From: Candidatus Gastranaerophilales bacterium | Lineage (GTDB): Bacteria; Cyanobacteriota; Vampirovibrionia; Gastranaerophilales; Gastranaerophilaceae | Assembly (NCBI GenBank): GCA_944323615.1 | Contig: CALUTG010000015.1 | Span: 1-33,810 of the forward strand | Direction of reading: 5' to 3' | DNA: 33,810 nt | Notes under the pieces: model-generated | Told to the model about the DNA's origin: nothing | The model's database searches: none | What the model saw: the letters and a program-made list of their open reading frames with translations, nothing else | Program-made: the position numbers and the translations under genes | Shown: positions 1,218-31,181 of the stretch, one piece after another | Position numbering within the stretch: position 1 is the first letter of the stretch | How the letters are laid out: every line of letters begins with the position of its first letter

Positions 1218-2178
1218 TTGAAGTTCTTTCGCCGTTTTCATATTCTGCGGTCAAAATGTTTACCAGCTGGTAGTCTTTATTATAAACACTTTCTTTTGTC
1301 TTAAGCCCGTCTGTATATTCACTCATAATACTTATACTGTCATCCGGCGTATAGTACGTAAACCTTGTGATATCTGCTCCGTCAAAGTTTACGGTAATAC
1401 TCATTTTAACATTACCTTCTCTGTCATAGAAAATATGCTCTTTTCGGTAATTTGTATCTCCTTCAAGAGTCTCTTTAAGAATTGAAAGGACATTATTATC
1501 ACCGTCTTTCATCTCATATTTAATATTATCATCCGAAGAATAATTCCAGACCTCAGTAAATTTTACGTTTCCTTCTTCATCATATTTTATGTGTTTTACC
1601 GGTCTATAAGGCTCTGTTGATTTATCAAACTTCCATTCATCGGTTTTATTCTTACCTTTATTTTGAGCTGATACAGCATTTGCTATTTCGTTTTCTTCTC
1701 CCGCATATCCGCCAAAGGTATATAAAGTATTTCCATCAGGAGTGATTTCTACAAATTCCAAGTCATGCCTGCTGTATGTATTACCGCTATTTATCGGATT
1801 TTGGAGTATAATCAGGATTGTCCCCTCATTTGTTTTCAAAAGATAAAATCCCTGAGCATCTTCTAGGATTCTGTCAATTAACTTCTTCATATTATCAGAC
1901 AAGCTTGAAATTTCCATAATTGAATATAACGGCAAATCATAAGGAGTTGCTGAATATAAATCGTATGATTTTTTAACCGGTGGAATAAACTTAACCGGTT
2001 CAGGTTCAACCTGTTTTACGGGTGTTTGTTTTGCAGAAACGGCAGTTTTGTCCTTTTGCACAGCTGCAGGCTCTGTTTTTGCTGTATCAGGAGATTTTTT
2101 GTCATAGAAAAAATAAGCTCCGGCAAGAGCTGCAAGCACGATAATTAAAACTGTTAAAGCTATCCGTTTCTTACTCAT
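1168..2178 (-). CDS. Hypothetical membrane-anchored protein with YD/MORN-like repeats
   Basis: The product has 336 residues: a basic N-terminus, one hydrophobic helix (about residues 8-25, VLIIVLAALAGAYFFY) and a Lys/Pro/Ala-rich linker to about residue 70, so a single-pass anchor with a large domain probably outside the inner membrane. The C-terminal half repeats short strands of the kind YDEEGNVKFTEVWNY, YDREGNVKMSITVNF and YTPDDSISIMSEYTDG, reminiscent of MORN/YwqK-like beta-hairpins. No catalytic motif is visible. The ATG at 2178 sits 6 nt after a TATAAT box with no Shine-Dalgarno, so the mRNA may be leaderless. Function unknown. Confidence 0.6.
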   Translation of the reverse strand: MSKKRIALTVLIIVLAALAGAYFFYDKKSPDTAKTEPAAVQKDKTAVSAKQTPVKQVEPEPVKFIPPVKKSYDLYSATPYDLPLYSIMEISSLSDNMKKLIDRILEDAQGFYLLKTNEGTILIILQNPINSGNTYSRHDLEFVEITPDGNTLYTFGGYAGEENEIANAVSAQNKGKNKTDEWKFDKSTEPYRPVKHIKYDEEGNVKFTEVWNYSSDDNIKYEMKDGDNNVLSILKETLEGDTNYRKEHIFYDREGNVKMSITVNFDGADITRFTYYTPDDSISIMSEYTDGLKTKESVYNKDYQLVNILTAEYENGERTSITLHDKTDTVLKKIER

Positions 2179-2184
2179 AGTTAC

Positions 2185-2212
2185 ATTATAATACCTTTCA
2201 AATCTTAAGCAA
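2185..2212 (-). promoter_or_regulatory. Promoter of the minus-strand gene starting at 2178 (leaderless candidate)
   Basis: On the minus strand TTGCTT (2212-2207) and TATAAT (2190-2185) are separated by 16 nt. The six-base discriminator GTAACT then leads directly to the ATG, so the predicted transcription start coincides with the start codon. Confidence 0.5.
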
Positions 2213-2261
2213 TACTAATGTTTACAAAGGTTAATTATTCATGCTTAAAAGTTCTTTTTCA

Positions 2262-2270
2262 TGGTAAAAT
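2262..2270 (+). promoter_or_regulatory. Extended -10 promoter of the nanE operon (leaderless candidate)
   Basis: TGG-TAAAAT is an extended -10 (TGn-TAAAAT). Seven bases (TTGAAAC) separate it from the ATG of nanE, and no Shine-Dalgarno is present. No good -35 is seen, which is usual for extended -10 promoters. Confidence 0.5.
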
Positions 2271-2277
2271 TTGAAAC

Positions 2278-2966: not shown

Positions 2967-3836
2967 ATGAAAAAAGCATTGGCATTTGATATTGGCGGAA
3001 CCAAAATATACAGCACTATAATTAACGAGGACGGAGAAATTATCTCGGAAATAGATAAGTTTTCTACCCCTAAAACCCTTGACGGAATTAAAGATGTCTT
3101 AAAAAAACAAATTTTAAAATACGAAGATAAAGTTGATTGTATTGCAATTGCAACAGCAGGAGCAGTTAATAATGAAAATACTGCCGTAATAGGTTCTACA
3201 GGGAACTTGGTCAAAGGCTATTTTACAATAGATTTCCAAAAATTAAGCAGCAAAAAAGTTTTTCTTGAAAATGACGCTAACGCAGCAGCCTGGGCTGAAT
3301 ACAAAATCGGCTCATCCAGAGGAAGCAAAGTTTCCGTTTTACTTACTCTCGGAACCGGAGTCGGCGGCGGAATTATTATCAATGACAAACTTCTCAAAGG
3401 AAAATCCGGAGCCGCCGGCGAAATGCACTTTAAAATGTATCCGGATAAGCGCAGAAAATGTACCTGCGGAAGCTACGACTGCTTTGAAATCTACGCATCA
3501 GGAACTGCTCTTAAACTAGATGCAGAAGAAACACTTAATGACAAAAGTGTAACCACCTACGACGTAATAGAAGGGCTTAAGAGCGGAGACAAAAAAATGA
3601 CAGAAATCTTTAACCGCTGGCAAAATGATATTACAGTCGGAATAAAGGGACTTGTAAATTTATTTGACCCTGATTGTGTTGTTCTTTCAGGCTCAATGGC
3701 CCAATTTGTAAATACAAAAAAAATCGAAGAGGGGGTAAATGAGGATTTAGTCGTACCTCCGACTTCAATAAGACTTGCTACCGCCGGCAATTATTCGGGT
3801 ATGATTGGCGCGGCTCTGCTTGCTATGCAAAAATAA
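2967..3836 (+). CDS. nanK: ROK family sugar kinase, probable N-acetylmannosamine kinase
   Basis: The product has 289 residues and the ROK/actin-fold signatures: phosphate-1 motif FDIGGTK (7-13), catalytic-base segment ENDANAAAWAEY (D103), TLGTGVGGGI (phosphate-2), and the ROK zinc cluster CTCGSYDC (C165, C167, C172). ROK kinases phosphorylate hexoses such as glucose, GlcNAc or ManNAc. The immediately upstream nanE makes ManNAc kinase the likeliest role; glucokinase remains possible. One oddity: the usual GExGH zinc histidine appears as GEMHF, one residue early. Same operon as nanE, the small gene at 3849 and glyA. Confidence 0.82.
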   Translation: MKKALAFDIGGTKIYSTIINEDGEIISEIDKFSTPKTLDGIKDVLKKQILKYEDKVDCIAIATAGAVNNENTAVIGSTGNLVKGYFTIDFQKLSSKKVFLENDANAAAWAEYKIGSSRGSKVSVLLTLGTGVGGGIIINDKLLKGKSGAAGEMHFKMYPDKRRKCTCGSYDCFEIYASGTALKLDAEETLNDKSVTTYDVIEGLKSGDKKMTEIFNRWQNDITVGIKGLVNLFDPDCVVLSGSMAQFVNTKKIEEGVNEDLVVPPTSIRLATAGNYSGMIGAALLAMQK

Positions 3837-13565: not shown

Positions 13566-15116
13566 CTACACACCTGCCGGAACATTTACTACCGTATCTG
13601 TTAATATAAATGAGAACTCGCTTCCTTTATTCAATACGCTTTCAAGCCAAATTTTCCCGCCATGGGATTCAATAATCTGCCTTGAAAGATAGAGACCCAA
13701 GCCTGTCCCTGCCGAGCGTTTTTTGCTCGTGCCCTGAGAGAACCTCTGGAACATATTCGGGATATCCTCCTGCGGAATACCGCAGCCATTATCAGACACG
13801 GAGAAAATAAGATCCTTATCTTCATTTTTCACCGTAATAACGACCTTTCCGCCTTCTTGCGTATAGCTTATTGCGTTTCCGCAAAGATTGCAGATTACTC
13901 TTCTAATTTCGCTTCTGTCCGCAATAATATGCAAGTCTTTATTCGCACAGTCCATTGTAAAATCTATATTTTTAGAATCCGCAAGAGGTTTGAGTTCATC
14001 ATAAGTTTGTTTTGTAAGTTCATAAATATTAAATTCGGTTTTATTCAAAACCAATTTCTCCGCATCGTACTTATAAACTTCTAATAAAGCGTTAACTAAG
14101 CCCAGTAAATCTTCATTACTTTTCTGCATTGTAGAAAGCAGGAGCTTTTGTTTTTCATCCAACTCGCCCAAAGCTCCGTCAAGGAAAAACTTAAGAGTTT
14201 GAATAGCTGCAAGCAGGGGTGTTCTCAAGTCATGAGTCAGAGTTGCAATAAAGTCATCTCTTAATTTGTCTGCCTTTTTCTGTTCAGTCACATCTCTTAT
14301 CACACCTACAAAGCGTTTAAAATCATCATCAGGATTAATTCTTGCAAAACTGATATCAACTGGAACTATTGCGCCGCTAAGTGGATTTTTAATATGGAAA
14401 TCCCTTAAAAACAGTTCATTTCCTTCCGCTTTATGAAGCTCCTTTGAAATAAAAGTTTTTTCACTGAATAAGAAATCATCAATTGATGAATTAAGAATCT
14501 TTGCACCGACAAGCCCAATAAGACTTTCACATGCAGGATTAACTTGCTCTATTATTCCATCCTCATTAAGGATTACTATTCCGTCCGCACAATAAGTCAC
14601 AATCCCCTCAAGCTTTGCGTTAGACTGTTTTAAATCTGCAGTTCTTTCTTCAACAAGCTGCTCAAGGTTTTTGGAGTATTTTTCAAGTTCTTTTTTCGCA
14701 TCCTCAAGCTCTGCTATTTTTTGCCTTAGCTGGGAAAGGAGGTAACTTCTTTCAATACCGTTTTTGATATTTATTATTAAATCATCATTGCTCCAGGGTT
14801 TTTCAATATATCTATATAATCCGATTTCATTAATAGCACGGATTGCGTTTTCTTTATCCGCATAACCCGTGAGAAGAATTTTGCTGACTTCGGGATAAAG
14901 TTTTTTTACCTCAGATAAAAATTCCAAACCGTTCATTTCGGGCATCAAAAAGTCCGAAATTACTAAATCCGGAGTGTTATCTTTTAAAAACTCCAAAGCT
15001 TCTTTAGGGTTATTGAAAAAATGCGCATCAGAGAACCCTTCCACCTTTAATAGTGTTGAAAAGGCAGATGTAACTATTTTTTCATCGTCAACAACAACAA
15101 TCTTCCCCGTTTCCAT
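13566..15116 (-). CDS. REC-PAS sensor histidine kinase
   Basis: The 516-residue protein has, in order, a receiver domain (about 5-120, D55 in LVISDFLMPE, Lys in RYIEKPWSNDDL), a coiled-coil linker (about 125-170), a PAS domain (about 170-280, ending GVIRDVTEQKK), a HisKA helix (ATLTHDLRTPLL, H295) and an ATPase domain (N-box LCGNAISYT, G1 VSDNGCGIP, G2 GTGLGLYLSRQII). There is no membrane segment, so it senses a cytosolic signal and may take phosphate from another kinase through the REC domain. The NarL regulator 2 nt downstream is the likely output. A promoter lies 6 nt before the ATG with no Shine-Dalgarno. Confidence 0.92.
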   Translation of the reverse strand: METGKIVVVDDEKIVTSAFSTLLKVEGFSDAHFFNNPKEALEFLKDNTPDLVISDFLMPEMNGLEFLSEVKKLYPEVSKILLTGYADKENAIRAINEIGLYRYIEKPWSNDDLIINIKNGIERSYLLSQLRQKIAELEDAKKELEKYSKNLEQLVEERTADLKQSNAKLEGIVTYCADGIVILNEDGIIEQVNPACESLIGLVGAKILNSSIDDFLFSEKTFISKELHKAEGNELFLRDFHIKNPLSGAIVPVDISFARINPDDDFKRFVGVIRDVTEQKKADKLRDDFIATLTHDLRTPLLAAIQTLKFFLDGALGELDEKQKLLLSTMQKSNEDLLGLVNALLEVYKYDAEKLVLNKTEFNIYELTKQTYDELKPLADSKNIDFTMDCANKDLHIIADRSEIRRVICNLCGNAISYTQEGGKVVITVKNEDKDLIFSVSDNGCGIPQEDIPNMFQRFSQGTSKKRSAGTGLGLYLSRQIIESHGGKIWLESVLNKGSEFSFILTDTVVNVPAGV

Positions 15117-15122
15117 AATTTT

Positions 15123-15151
15123 ATCTTAACCCAAATAAATACAATAGACAA
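15123..15151 (-). promoter_or_regulatory. Promoter of the REC-PAS-kinase operon (leaderless candidate)
   Basis: Minus-strand TTGTCT (15151-15146) and TAAGAT (15128-15123) are exactly 17 nt apart. The six bases AAAATT then lead to the ATG at 15116. Confidence 0.45.
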
Positions 15152-23230: not shown

Positions 23231-23581
23231 TCAGTTTTTACACTCTTTTTTAATCCATTCCATAATCAATTTAACTAAATATTCCTGCGCTTCCTTACTT
23301 AGTTCAACCCCCTTCTTAAAGCCATGCCATTTTTCCACACATCCGCGGCAGCAAGTTGCCGTTGCATGCTGCGCAATAAAAACGGGATGATTTCTCATGG
23401 GAGTTTGTTTACCGTCATTAGGAATAAATGCGGGTGCTACTCTTTTAGAAATAAATTCTCTTGCATGATCCTCTATTTTATCAAAACCTTTTGATAAAAC
23501 GTACTCTTTATCCTTTTTTGAAAGTTTAAATTTACTTCTAAACTTTGATTTTGCAAGGCACTGAAATATATCATTTTCCAT
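23231..23581 (-). CDS. DUF4186 family protein
   Basis: The 116-residue product matches the DUF4186 family as I know it: a central FIPNDGKQTPMRNHPVFIAQ, then HATATCCRGCVEKWHG, and a C-terminal LVKLIMEWIKKE helix. The conserved His and three Cys could bind a metal. No function is established for the family. The ATG at 23581 lacks a Shine-Dalgarno and is 6 nt from a TAAAAT box, so its mRNA may be leaderless. It is divergent from rarA. Confidence 0.88.
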   Translation of the reverse strand: MENDIFQCLAKSKFRSKFKLSKKDKEYVLSKGFDKIEDHAREFISKRVAPAFIPNDGKQTPMRNHPVFIAQHATATCCRGCVEKWHGFKKGVELSKEAQEYLVKLIMEWIKKECKN

Positions 23582-23587
23582 ACTTAT

Positions 23588-23617
23588 ATTTTAATACGAA
23601 ACAATACCTTTAAACAA
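23588..23617 (-). promoter_or_regulatory. Promoter of the DUF4186 gene (leaderless candidate)
   Basis: Minus-strand TAAAAT (23593-23588) is followed by ATAAGT and then the ATG. A weak TTGTTT lies 18 nt upstream of the -10. Confidence 0.4.
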
Positions 23618-23649: not shown

Positions 23650-23658
23650 TGCTAAAAT
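23650..23658 (+). promoter_or_regulatory. Extended -10 promoter of rarA
   Basis: TGC-TAAAAT is an extended -10. It overlaps an in-frame ATG at 23657, which therefore cannot be the translation start. The predicted transcript starts near 23665 and has a leader of only about 10 nt. Confidence 0.55.
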
Positions 23659-23674
23659 GTTTACGAGGGATATT

Positions 23675-24991
23675 ATGGAACAGAAATCACTTTTTGAAAA
23701 CGAAATCAACCAGCCTCTTGCATCCAGACTCAGACCGCAGAATCTGGACGAATTTGTCGGGCAAACTCATCTTATCGGAGAAGGCAAAATATTAAGAAGG
23801 CTGATTGAAGGTGATAATATTTCTTCCCTTATCTTCTGGGGACCTCCCGGTGTAGGGAAAACCACTCTTGCAAGTATTATTGCAAGCAAAACTCACTCAA
23901 CTTTTATCAACTTTTCTGCCGTAACAAGCGGTATAAAAGAGATAAAAGAAGTTATGACACAAGCTGAGCAGGCTCGCAAGATGGGTGAAAAAACAATTGT
24001 TTTTGTAGACGAAATCCACCGTTTTAATAAAGCACAGCAAGATGCATTTCTTCCTTTTGTGGAAAAAGGAAGTATTATCCTAATCGGCGCAACAACGGAA
24101 AATCCATCTTTCGAAGTTAACGGAGCTTTACTCTCAAGATGCAAAGTTTTTGTGCTTCAGGGACTAAAAACAGAAGACCTCGTTACACTCCTTAAACGCG
24201 CAATAACGGATAAAAGAGGGTTCGGGGAGCAGAAAGTAAATATAAGCGATGAACATCTGGAAATTATCGCCAAATTTGCTAACGGGGATGCAAGAAACGC
24301 CCTCTCAACTTTAGAAATGGTGGTTCTAAACGGAAACATCAGCGATGACGGGGAAATTACGGTTACGGATGAAACTCTGGAACAATGTATTTCTAAAAAA
24401 TCACTACTCTACGATAAAAGCGGTGAAGAACATTACAATATAATTTCAGCACTGCATAAATCAATGAGAAACTCTGATCCTGATGCAGCTGTATATTGGC
24501 TTGCAAGGATGCTGGAAGCGGGAGAAGACCCGTTATATGTAGCAAGAAGGGTCACACGATTTGCAAGTGAAGATATAGGACTTGCCGATCCGCATGCGCT
24601 TGAAATGGCTGTCGCAGCTTATCATGCCTGCCACTTTATCGGAATGCCGGAATGCTCCGTACATTTAACCCAGGCCGTTGTATATATGTCACTTGCACCA
24701 AAATCAAATGCTTTATATATGGCTTATGAAACGGCTAAAAGAGATGCTATAAAAGAATTAGCCGAACCTGTTCCGCTCGTTATCAGAAATGCTCCAACAA
24801 AGCTCATGAAAGAATTGAATTACGGAAAAGGTTACCAATATGCACATGATACGGAGGCAAAACTTACCAATATGCAATGTCTCCCTGATTCTTTAGCCGG
24901 AAAAGAATATTATCATCCGACAGAACAAGGCTTGGAAGCAAAATATAAAGCCAAACTCGAACAAATTAAAGAGTGGAAGAGAACTCATTAA
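23675..24991 (+). CDS. rarA: Replication-associated recombination protein A (RarA/MgsA)
   Basis: RarA is an AAA+ ATPase of the clamp-loader/RuvB group that acts at stalled replication forks. From the ATG at 23675, preceded by GAGGG, the protein has 438 residues: RPQNLDEFVGQ (20-30), Walker A GPPGVGKTT (56-64), Walker B IVFVDEIH (108-115), sensor 1 IGATTENPSF, arginine-finger segment LLSRCKVF, sensor 2 GDARNALSTLE, and the RarA C-terminal MRNSDPDAAVYWLARML and AEPVPLVIRNAPTKLMKEL tetramerisation region. The ATG 18 nt upstream lies in the -10 box and is rejected as start. Confidence 0.96.
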   Translation: MEQKSLFENEINQPLASRLRPQNLDEFVGQTHLIGEGKILRRLIEGDNISSLIFWGPPGVGKTTLASIIASKTHSTFINFSAVTSGIKEIKEVMTQAEQARKMGEKTIVFVDEIHRFNKAQQDAFLPFVEKGSIILIGATTENPSFEVNGALLSRCKVFVLQGLKTEDLVTLLKRAITDKRGFGEQKVNISDEHLEIIAKFANGDARNALSTLEMVVLNGNISDDGEITVTDETLEQCISKKSLLYDKSGEEHYNIISALHKSMRNSDPDAAVYWLARMLEAGEDPLYVARRVTRFASEDIGLADPHALEMAVAAYHACHFIGMPECSVHLTQAVVYMSLAPKSNALYMAYETAKRDAIKELAEPVPLVIRNAPTKLMKELNYGKGYQYAHDTEAKLTNMQCLPDSLAGKEYYHPTEQGLEAKYKAKLEQIKEWKRTH

Positions 24992-28322: not shown

Positions 28323-28351
28323 ATGACAGCCCGCCTTGTTTAGTGTATAAT
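28323..28351 (+). promoter_or_regulatory. Strong promoter of the radical SAM gene (leaderless candidate)
   Basis: ATGACA (28323-28328) and a perfect TATAAT (28346-28351) are exactly 17 nt apart. The discriminator AACCTT places transcription start at 28358, the A of the ATG. A GTG at 28343, in frame, would overlap the -10 box and is rejected as start. Confidence 0.7.
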
Positions 28352-28357
28352 AACCTT

Positions 28358-28981
28358 ATGTATACACTCGTTTATTCAATCGACAATAATAAAAATCCGG
28401 AAACAGTCTATGTAAATCTTACAAATGCTTGTTCTAATTCGTGCATTTTTTGCTTGAGGAATCAAAAAGATGATGTTTGCGGAGCCGAAATGTGGCACGA
28501 TGATAAGTACACACTGGATGATATAATTGAACAGTTTAAGAACTTTTCGTCTGCTAAAAACGTTGTCTTCTGCGGTTATGGAGAACCTTTCCTGAAAAAA
28601 GATATGATGAAAGCTTTCTGTAATTACCTGAGAGCAAACTATCCGGATATAAAAATCCGCGTTAATACAAACGGTCATGCAAACGCTATTTACAAAACAA
28701 ACGTTGTCGATGAATTTAAAGGCTTACTGGATGAAGTATCCGTAAGTCTCAACTCTGACACAGCGGAAGAATATAATGAAATCTGTAATCCTAAAATAGA
28801 AAATGCCTATGAAGAAGTCAAAAAATTTATAAAAGCATGCACCAATGCCGGAATTAAAACTACAGCAAGTGTTGTAACAGGTTTTGATAAACATAAAATA
28901 AATACAGAAGAATGCAAAAAAATAGCAGAATCTTTAGGCGCAAAATTCCGTAACAGAGAATTTATAACAAACGGTTATTAA
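28358..28981 (+). CDS. TatD-family-associated radical SAM protein
   Basis: The 207-residue protein has the radical SAM cluster CSNSCIFC (C25, C29, C32 binding a 4Fe-4S cluster), then VVFCGYGEPFLKKDMM (GGE-like SAM-binding turn), IKIRVNTNGHAN, LLDEVSVSLNSD and YNEICNPK. This set and the short length match the family that I know as the TatD-linked radical SAM proteins. The family reaction is not known. No tatD lies in the window. The start chosen is ATG 28358 because the upstream GTG lies in the promoter. There is no Shine-Dalgarno. The next gene follows after 18 nt. Confidence 0.85.
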   Translation: MYTLVYSIDNNKNPETVYVNLTNACSNSCIFCLRNQKDDVCGAEMWHDDKYTLDDIIEQFKNFSSAKNVVFCGYGEPFLKKDMMKAFCNYLRANYPDIKIRVNTNGHANAIYKTNVVDEFKGLLDEVSVSLNSDTAEEYNEICNPKIENAYEEVKKFIKACTNAGIKTTASVVTGFDKHKINTEECKKIAESLGAKFRNREFITNGY

Positions 28982-29485: not shown

Positions 29486-30053
29486 ACTCATCCTTGCTTC
29501 AAATTCTCCGAGAAGAAGGCAAATAATGGCAGATTTGAGTCTTGAGTTTGAAGTAATTCCTTCTAATTACGAAGAAAAAAGAGAGACCGATATTTTTTCC
29601 TATGAAATTATAGAAGACCTAGCAACCCAAAAAGCGCTGGATGTTGTCAGAAGAACCGGACAAGATGAAATTGTACTTGGAGCCGACACTGTAGTAGTCT
29701 TAGATAATAAGATTTTAGGCAAACCCAAAGACAAAGAAGCCGCTTTTGATATGCTCAAATCATTATCCGGAAGGACACATTCAGTTGTAACCTCTCTTTG
29801 CGGAATAAACACAAAGACAAATCGGGCTGCTCTTATTTCCACAACAAGCTACGTTAGATTTAAAGAACTTTCTAATGAGCTTATACATTATTATATAGAC
29901 AACTTTAACCCGCTGGATAAGGCAGGAAGTTACGGAATACAAGAACTTCCTCCAAACTTTTTAGATACGTATGAAGGAAGTTTTGAAAATATTGTAGGAT
30001 TAGACCCCGAAGCTGTTAAATCAGTTATTCAGCAGTTGGGGTATCATCTGTAG
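29478..30053 (+). CDS. maf: Maf-like nucleotide pyrophosphatase
   Basis: Maf proteins hydrolyse dTTP/UTP or modified nucleotides to monophosphates, and have been linked to septum control. The 191-residue product has the family's opening LILASNSPRRRQIM (4-17), LGADTVVVLDNKILGKPKD with the catalytic Asp, SGRTHSVVTSLCG, and the C-terminal DKAGSYGIQELPPNF then NIVGLDPEAVKSVIQQLG, pointing to the dTTP/UTPase subgroup (YhdE type). It starts 8 nt before the upstream stop, so it is translationally coupled, and its 3' end overlaps the convergent S1 gene by 29 nt. Confidence 0.93.
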   Translation: MVKLILASNSPRRRQIMADLSLEFEVIPSNYEEKRETDIFSYEIIEDLATQKALDVVRRTGQDEIVLGADTVVVLDNKILGKPKDKEAAFDMLKSLSGRTHSVVTSLCGINTKTNRAALISTTSYVRFKELSNELIHYYIDNFNPLDKAGSYGIQELPPNFLDTYEGSFENIVGLDPEAVKSVIQQLGYHL

Positions 30054-31095
30054 GTAAACCTAAAGAAATACGTTTATCTTTCGGGTTGAATTTAATAATC
30101 TTAGTATTAATTTTATCTCCGTTTTTCAAAATACAGTTATTTTGATTCTGGTATTCAGCAAGCGCTGACTGCGGAAGCAGTGCTTCTACACCCGGAAGTA
30201 CTTCCACAAAAGCCCCAAAAGCTTTGATTCTGGTAATTACACCTTCTTTAATATCACCTTCTTTCAACTCTTCTTCTGCTTTAATCCACGGATCAGGCTC
30301 GGTATTTTTAAGACTTAAGCTGATTCTCTGCTTATCATAGTCAACATCAATAATCTCAACGTTAATTTCTTGCCCGACTTTCAGCAAATCTGTAGGGTGT
30401 TCAACCCATTTCCAGGAAATCTGAGATAAAGGAAGCAGGCAGTCTACACCGCCGATATTAACAAAAGCACCAAAATCGGTAATTCTTACAACTTCACCCT
30501 TAACAATTTGACCGACTTCAATCTGGGCAAATACATTCTTACGTGTTTCAGCCATATTGGTTTCAAAAACTTTTCTGTTAGACAAAATCAGATTGTTTTG
30601 AGACTTATCCAGAGTAAGAATTTTAACATCCAATTTGTCGCCTACATTACATATAGTTTCTCTTGCACAAAGCTGACCTTGTGGAATAAAACCTTGTACA
30701 CCTGAAATATCAGCAATTAAACCGCCTTTAACAATTTGAGAAATTGTAACTGAAATTGTTTCATCAGCCTCTTTAACTTTAGCAAGCTCTTCCCAGGTAT
30801 GTGCAAGATGAACTTTCTTATAAGAAAGCGTAAACTTTCCGTTTTCATCACAATCCTGAGTAATCAAAAACTCATACTCTTTACCTTTTTCTAAGACGTC
30901 TTCAACTTTTGCCTTTCTATCCGCAGATACTTCGTAACTCGGAACAAAAGCTGTACACTTAGCGCCGATATCAACAATAGCCCCATCAGATTCATAAGTA
31001 CATACAACACCATTTACAATATCACCCCTTTTAAAGTTATAATCATACTTACCTAAAAGGGTCTCAAAATCAGAATCTGAACACTTCTCAACCAT
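30025..31095 (-). CDS. rpsA: Four-domain S1 RNA-binding protein (ribosomal protein S1 homologue)
   Basis: The 356-residue protein contains four S1 domains at about residues 20-92, 97-173, 190-265 and 275-348. Each has the G-x-V-x-x-x-x-x-(G/D)-(A/G)-hydrophobic-V core, best seen in GQIVKGEVVRITDFGAFVNI and GDIKEGVITRIKAFGAFVEV. S1 brings mRNA to the small ribosomal subunit and helps unfold it. E. coli S1 has six domains; shorter forms with three or four occur in cyanobacteria and Firmicutes. GGAGG precedes the ATG. In a genome with many apparent leaderless genes, S1 content may matter for initiation, which is my inference. Confidence 0.9.
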   Translation of the reverse strand: MVEKCSDSDFETLLGKYDYNFKRGDIVNGVVCTYESDGAIVDIGAKCTAFVPSYEVSADRKAKVEDVLEKGKEYEFLITQDCDENGKFTLSYKKVHLAHTWEELAKVKEADETISVTISQIVKGGLIADISGVQGFIPQGQLCARETICNVGDKLDVKILTLDKSQNNLILSNRKVFETNMAETRKNVFAQIEVGQIVKGEVVRITDFGAFVNIGGVDCLLPLSQISWKWVEHPTDLLKVGQEINVEIIDVDYDKQRISLSLKNTEPDPWIKAEEELKEGDIKEGVITRIKAFGAFVEVLPGVEALLPQSALAEYQNQNNCILKNGDKINTKIIKFNPKDKRISLGLPTDDTPTAE

Positions 31096-31181
31096 TATCC
31101 ATCCTCCATTGCAATAAACATGGGTTTATTATAGCATATTTACCTTAATTCATCAATAGGGATACATGTTTGAATAGTTTT

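Follow-up and report, generated by a model that had tools for sequence, protein, structure and literature searches.

Putative leaderless genes beside Shine-Dalgarno-led genes in a gut bacterium of the order Gastranaerophilales

Introduction

In the genome of a Candidatus Gastranaerophilales bacterium, two divergent genes are separated by a gap in which each of them has a -10 box ending only 6 or 7 nt before its ATG, which raises the question whether transcription begins at the start codon itself and, if so, whether such leaderless starts are a regular feature of this lineage. The Gastranaerophilales are an uncultured gut group in the cyanobacterial phylum. The stretch of DNA analysed here (33,810 nt, hereafter the window) is contig C15 of genome G000, a draft assembly of 1.93 Mb in 90 contigs with a completeness of 96% and a G+C content of 36%. 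A sequence-only reading of the window had proposed five such starts without a Shine-Dalgarno (SD) sequence among mostly SD-led genes, and hence two coexisting modes of initiation. The distance from the end of the -10 hexamer to the transcription start is usually 6–7 nt; since the distance from box to ATG is the same at these starts, +1 would be placed on the A of the ATG.

Results

Five gene starts with an adjacent -10 box

Inspection of the sequence found all five -10 boxes where the sequence-only reading had put them, each ending 6 or 7 nt before an ATG, which is the start codon at 5 of 5 sites, and a usable SD site was found at none. The divergent gap indeed measures 99 nt. On the minus strand, TATAAT (2190..2185) is followed by a 6-nt spacer (2184..2179) and the ATG (2178..2176) of the gene at 1168–2178, with a predicted transcription start at 2178; on the plus strand, the extended -10 element TGG-TAAAAT (2262–2270) is followed by a 7-nt spacer (2271–2277) and the ATG (2278–2280) of the gene at 2278–2961. 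The latter encodes a protein of the N-acetylmannosamine-6-phosphate 2-epimerase (NanE) family (NF002231, 264.7 bits against a cut-off of 189; PF04131), and the next gene encodes a ROK-family kinase (2967–3836). Its divergent partner encodes a 336-aa protein with no match in NCBIfam or Pfam, which is present in 33 of the 57 genomes searched, all from one genus. A promoter scanner run on 2100–2350 reported neither of the two promoters.

The third site lies on the minus strand before a receiver-PAS-histidine kinase gene (13566–15116), where a -35-like TTGTCT (15151..15146) is separated by 17 nt from TAAGAT (15128..15123), with a 6-nt spacer before the ATG (15116..15114). The remaining two are TAAAAT-6 nt-ATG (23593..23579, minus strand) at the gene for a DUF4186 protein (23231–23581) and TATAAT-6 nt-ATG (28346..28360, plus strand) at the gene for a TatD-associated radical SAM protein (28358–28981).

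A sharp spacing peak at gene starts

The loose pattern TANNNT-N6-ATG occurs 25 times anywhere in the window and 29.1 times in shuffles, which is no excess, and the test was therefore replaced by counting at gene starts. The genome sample comprised 793 kb (760 kb of G000 and the window), in which 726 genes were called with a coding-potential gene caller that is blind to upstream sequence; the start calls are thus our own and imperfect. The distance from the end of the -10 box to the ATG was measured at spacings 0–100 for the 686 genes with an ATG start and 120 nt of upstream sequence, genes with GTG or TTG starts or a shorter upstream region being left out. The strict -10 set consisted of TAWAAT, TATDAT and TATAMT, and the loose set of TANNNT. 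TAAGAT at 15116 does not belong to the strict set, and its support comes from conservation instead (see below).

TATAAT ends 6 nt before the ATG in 20 of the 686 genes and 7 nt before it in 4, with none at 5 and none at 8 nt; the other spacings average 1.5 genes and reach 8 at most. For the strict set, there are 35 genes at 6 nt and 9 at 7 nt, 1 at 5 nt and 3 at 8 nt, the other spacings averaging 5.5 and never exceeding 14. Thus, the comparison with shifted spacings by which the sequence-only reading was to be judged, made on the 793-kb sample, gave a sharp peak at 6 nt. The peak persists when the window is excluded (652 genes: TATAAT in 18 at 6 nt and 4 at 7 nt, strict set in 32 and 8), and when any in-frame ATG near the start is allowed, the strict count at 6 nt is 42 (700 genes). 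A second, broad hump at about 22–36 nt from the ATG marks the box position of leadered genes. In the whole genome, TATAAT-N6-ATG occurs 104 times and the pattern read backwards 40 times; the sample contains 48 sites of the former kind, divided into 20 called gene starts, 17 alternative in-frame starts of called genes, 7 positions between genes and 4 within them. No peak at spacing 6 was seen for GTG (19 genes) or TTG starts (18 genes). From the peak minus the background, we estimate that about 5% of the genes would be leaderless, to which weaker boxes such as that at 15116 would add.

What sets the candidate genes apart

The 44 genes with a strict -10 box at spacing 6 or 7 differ from the others in several respects. 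An SD tetramer within 20 nt upstream of the ATG is present in 2 of these 44 candidates compared with 407 of the 642 others, so that 409 of the 686 ATG genes carry one and most of the other genes are SD-led, as the sequence-only reading had it. T precedes the ATG at -1 in 84% of the candidates and in 45% of the others, and TGn stands before the -10 box in 22 of the 44. A TTGACA-like -35 element (at most 2 mismatches) lies 17 nt upstream in 9 of the 44, the highest count among 16 spacings tried; spacing 19 gives 7. Moreover, 8 of 43 candidates versus 258 of 610 others lie less than 50 nt from a same-strand neighbour, and 24 of 43 versus 171 of 610 are divergently arranged; a divergent pair in which both genes are candidates occurs once in the 793-kb sample, at the 2178/2278 site. 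In many candidates, e.g. those for RuvC, chorismate synthase, MnmE, ribulose-phosphate epimerase and HigB, the Pfam domain begins within the first 14 residues, which leaves little space for a downstream start.

A common functional theme was rejected, as a Pfam search (1e-10) of 40 candidates outside the window returned a mixture of genes for housekeeping, transport, surface sugars and regulation. Among the candidates, with spacing 7, is a ribosomal RNA adenine dimethylase gene (L070:4905–5741). In the window, a RarA-family gene at 23657 (plus strand, 23653–23680), in which TATGC-TAAAAT overlaps the first ATG, was rejected as leaderless: it would be so only with that first ATG, and translation more probably begins at a later ATG preceded by GAGG, which would leave an SD-led mRNA with about 10 nt of leader. 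The anti-SD pattern GGNTCACCTCCTTT has 0 matches in the G000 genome, which we put down to a 16S gene lacking or broken in the draft genome and do not count as evidence about the ribosome.

Conservation in orthologs

No more than 30 loci were extracted and read for each gene, although more genomes had a match; those with a non-ATG start were excluded (the 2178 gene, 1 of 30; DUF4186, 4 of 30; radical SAM, 1 of 30). The arrangement is most strongly kept at two genes. Of the 30 NanE orthologs from the genus, 27 have TANNNT at a spacing of 6 or 7 nt, mostly as TATG-n-TAAAAT, and none of the 30 has an SD tetramer. For the receiver-histidine kinase, 29 of 30 orthologs in the genus have TANNNT at 6 nt, within a conserved upstream block that reads TTGTC...17 nt...TAATAT/TAAGAT-6-ATG. 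SD-like tetramers were flagged in 11 of these 29 leaderless kinase orthologs and in 5 of 5 leaderless orthologs of the 2178 gene, and those inspected sit at or upstream of the -10 box. At the DUF4186 gene the feature is patchy and the neighbourhood varies, with a strict -10 box at 6 nt in 6 of 26 ATG-start orthologs and TANNNT in 11 of 26.

The 2178 gene and the radical SAM gene behave alike. A strict -10 box at leaderless spacing is present in 5 of 29 ATG orthologs of the former, and 5 of 29 ATG-start orthologs of the latter are leaderless; it is the same five species in both cases, and these form one clade. In the remaining 24 orthologs of the 2178 gene, TATAAT lies 15–35 nt upstream and an SD tetramer is present in 23 of 24; among the non-clade radical SAM orthologs, TATAAT lies 16–33 nt upstream in 19 of 24 and an SD tetramer is again present in 23 of 24. 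The first codons of the radical SAM gene are ATG TAY ACN in 28 of 30 orthologs, the other two reading GTG TAC ACT and ATG GCT. The support for the five-species clade is 0.995 on NanE plus radical SAM, and for single genes 0.999 (NanE), 0.854 (radical SAM) and 0.988 (2178 protein); the trees with genome G004 hold 28 to 30 taxa, and the first tree was made without G004, whose kinase ortholog is not among the loci. The simplest reading is that the leader was lost on one branch in two genes, a direction of change that we infer.

Samples of whole gene sets were compared as well. Among 164 reciprocal-best pairs between G000 and genome G015 of the same genus, the feature is in both members of 10, in one only of 4 and 3, and in neither of 147. 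One of the shared pairs (L067:12423) looks like an ordinary SD-led gene, and other spacings are also correlated between the two genomes (2 pairs share 9/10 nt and 7 share 22/23 nt) because their DNA is similar, so that this count is supporting and not decisive. Between G000 and the more distant G033, 2 of 101 pairs share the feature and it is found in only one member of 4 and 4.

Distribution in the order and the phylum

The same profile of spacings at gene starts was drawn up for samples from four further genomes. TATAAT stands at 6 nt in 14 genes and at 8 nt in none in G015, in 8 and 1 in G033 (same genus), and in 6 and none in G044, which belongs to another family of the same order. In G201, of the same phylum and from outside the class, which we take to be probably a photosynthetic cyanobacterium, TATAAT at 6 nt was found in 0 of 298 genes sampled, and an SD tetramer in 47 of 287.

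In addition, TATAAT-N6-ATG was counted coarsely against the mean of spacings 8–12 in 52 genomes hand-chosen for spread from 292. The ratio is 1.82 in the window's family (19 genomes), 1.33 in family f6 of the same order (1 genome) and 1.3 in family f9 of the same class (5 genomes). In this count, 13 phylum members in eight families gave 847 versus 836, and 14 members in five other families gave 302 versus 126; an excess in the pattern counts is found in families f10, f12, f16, f19 and f20. Judging from these samples and counts, the feature is widespread in the window's group and, by pattern counts alone, perhaps present in further lineages of the phylum. In five genomes from outside the class (G069, G088, G094, G066 and G100, of families f16, f12 and f20), TATAAT-N6-ATG is 2.6 to 4.8 times as frequent as at neighbouring spacings, though TATAAT is rare in them; other members of f12 are lower (1.55 and 1.63).

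Discussion

Interpretation and alternatives

The 6-nt peak, the near absence of SD tetramers and the T at -1 among the candidates, the conserved spacing and the recurrence of the peak in another genome of the order bear out the proposal that leaderless and SD-led modes coexist. Both the 5' ends of the transcripts and the mode of translation are deduced here from sequence, and we regard it as very probable that sigma-70-type promoters with a start site on the A of the ATG yield leaderless mRNAs beside SD-led ones. Such a promoter, its -10 hexamer ending 6 or less often 7 nt before the ATG and assisted by an extended TGn and a weak -35 element, would set the transcription start at this A or at most about one nucleotide away. 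The mRNA would then begin with 5'-AUG, so that translation would proceed without an SD interaction, and the 5'-terminal AUG would presumably be recognised directly by the 70S ribosome or by a subunit loaded with initiator tRNA.

In a genome of 36% G+C, AT-rich hexamers may come to lie near start codons by chance, with which the equality of the loose window count and the shuffles agrees; however, chance would hardly account for a peak one nucleotide wide at 6 nt that is absent at 5 and 8, recurs in the samples from four genomes and is maintained across species, and we give this explanation almost no credence. It is somewhat less remote, yet still quite improbable, that the promoters are real and translation starts at an SD-led codon further downstream, the mRNAs having short leaders. 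The RarA-family gene resembles such a case. On the other hand, the peak is tied to the position of the ATG and does not appear for the 19 GTG and 18 TTG starts, Pfam domains begin few residues after the leaderless ATG, and the orthologs of NanE, the kinase and the radical SAM protein align from that ATG.

Slightly more weight, though in our opinion little, is due to the possibility that the main transcripts are leadered and start further upstream, the near box being either a promoter of little or no activity or an AU-rich stretch that assists S1-dependent initiation without SD. The genome has two S1 homologues, and S1 binding has been proposed for AT-rich signals (PMC5397173, in the part drawn on here). 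However, an AU-rich aid would not yield a hexamer placed with one-nucleotide sharpness together with TGn, T at -1 and a -35 element, and the conserved block before the kinase gene fits a -35/-10 spacing of 17. Leaderless transcription from ORF-adjacent promoters thus remains our preferred reading.

Comparison with known systems

Mycobacteria commonly have leaderless starts at GUG and small ORFs without a leader; unlike these, the present genes show no peak at GTG (19 GTG-start genes). They resemble mycobacterial genes in that leaderless genes stand beside leadered ones (PMC4633059, in the portion cited). According to the sections of Zheng et al. (2011, PMC3160421) cited here, 207 of 953 bacterial genomes contain leaderless genes, marked by a TA-like signal some 12 bp ahead of the start; the present genes are like those, with a TANNNT -10 box about 12 bp before the start alongside SD-led genes. 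In the same sections, the Cyanobacteria are not listed among the leaderless groups and the Gastranaerophilales are not named, and many cyanobacteria are given as having neither SD-led nor leaderless genes. A further likeness is to Deinococcus-Thermus (2025, PMC12340547), where, in the part of the paper cited, leaderless mRNAs arise from a -10 box located a few bp upstream of the ORF and an added -35 element strengthens such a promoter; that arrangement concerns about 30% of ORFs there versus about 5% here, where the box is a fuller TATAAT, often with TGn. No report of leaderless genes in Gastranaerophilales, Melainabacteria or Vampirovibrio was found in the literature covered, outside which most subscription papers and preprints lie. 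What we describe is therefore a known kind of gene, in a lineage for which that literature gave no report of it.

An uncultured gut lineage of the cyanobacterial phylum would thereby be added to the users of leaderless starts, beside a sampled relative in the phylum without the signal. Furthermore, orthologs that share an N-terminus and have or lack a leader would provide a natural series on the loss of leaders and SD sites, and gene callers that rely on SD sequences may misplace leaderless starts.

S1 homologues and a sixth site

A loss of ribosomal protein S1 as the cause of the leaderless starts was rejected, since 6 of 6 genomes searched have S1 homologues, none scoring above the cut-off for the family, as in 12 of 14 control genomes. 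Each of the 6 genomes searched has at least 2 S1-like matches; in G000, one homologue is encoded in the window (30025–31095, minus strand) and a second at C3:62242–63267 (plus strand).

Beyond the five starts, a sixth TATAAT-6-ATG (31133–31119, within 31093..31133, minus strand) stands at the start of an ORF of 8 codons; the stop codon TAA of this ORF (31097..31095) and the ATG of the S1 homologue (31095) overlap as TAATG. Among the matches listed in a search of 34 genus genomes, an exact TATAAT-N6-RTGTTTATT precedes the S1 homologue in 20 of 22 genomes, at a distance to the S1 ATG of 26–29 nt in 11 and of 54–71 nt in 9. The motif was not found upstream of the homologue in G006 and G032, the gene being split between contigs in G032, and the equivalent place in G033 and G001 reads TATAAT-N6-GTGTTTATT. 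The first codon after the spacer is mostly GTG across the genomes listed and ATG in the window.

The conservation of this 5' end may reflect a leaderless mini-ORF, or else a promoter whose initial nucleotides have a part in regulation. One could imagine that the S1 mRNA begins with the start codon of a leaderless mini-ORF which, being translated without S1 and reaching into the S1 start, couples S1 synthesis to S1 shortage; we think this unlikely, and if true, the mini-ORF would join both initiation modes of the lineage in one feedback circuit. Translation of the mini-ORF is argued against by the lack of a GTG leaderless peak elsewhere, together with the frame of the mini-ORF, which differs among the three species read.
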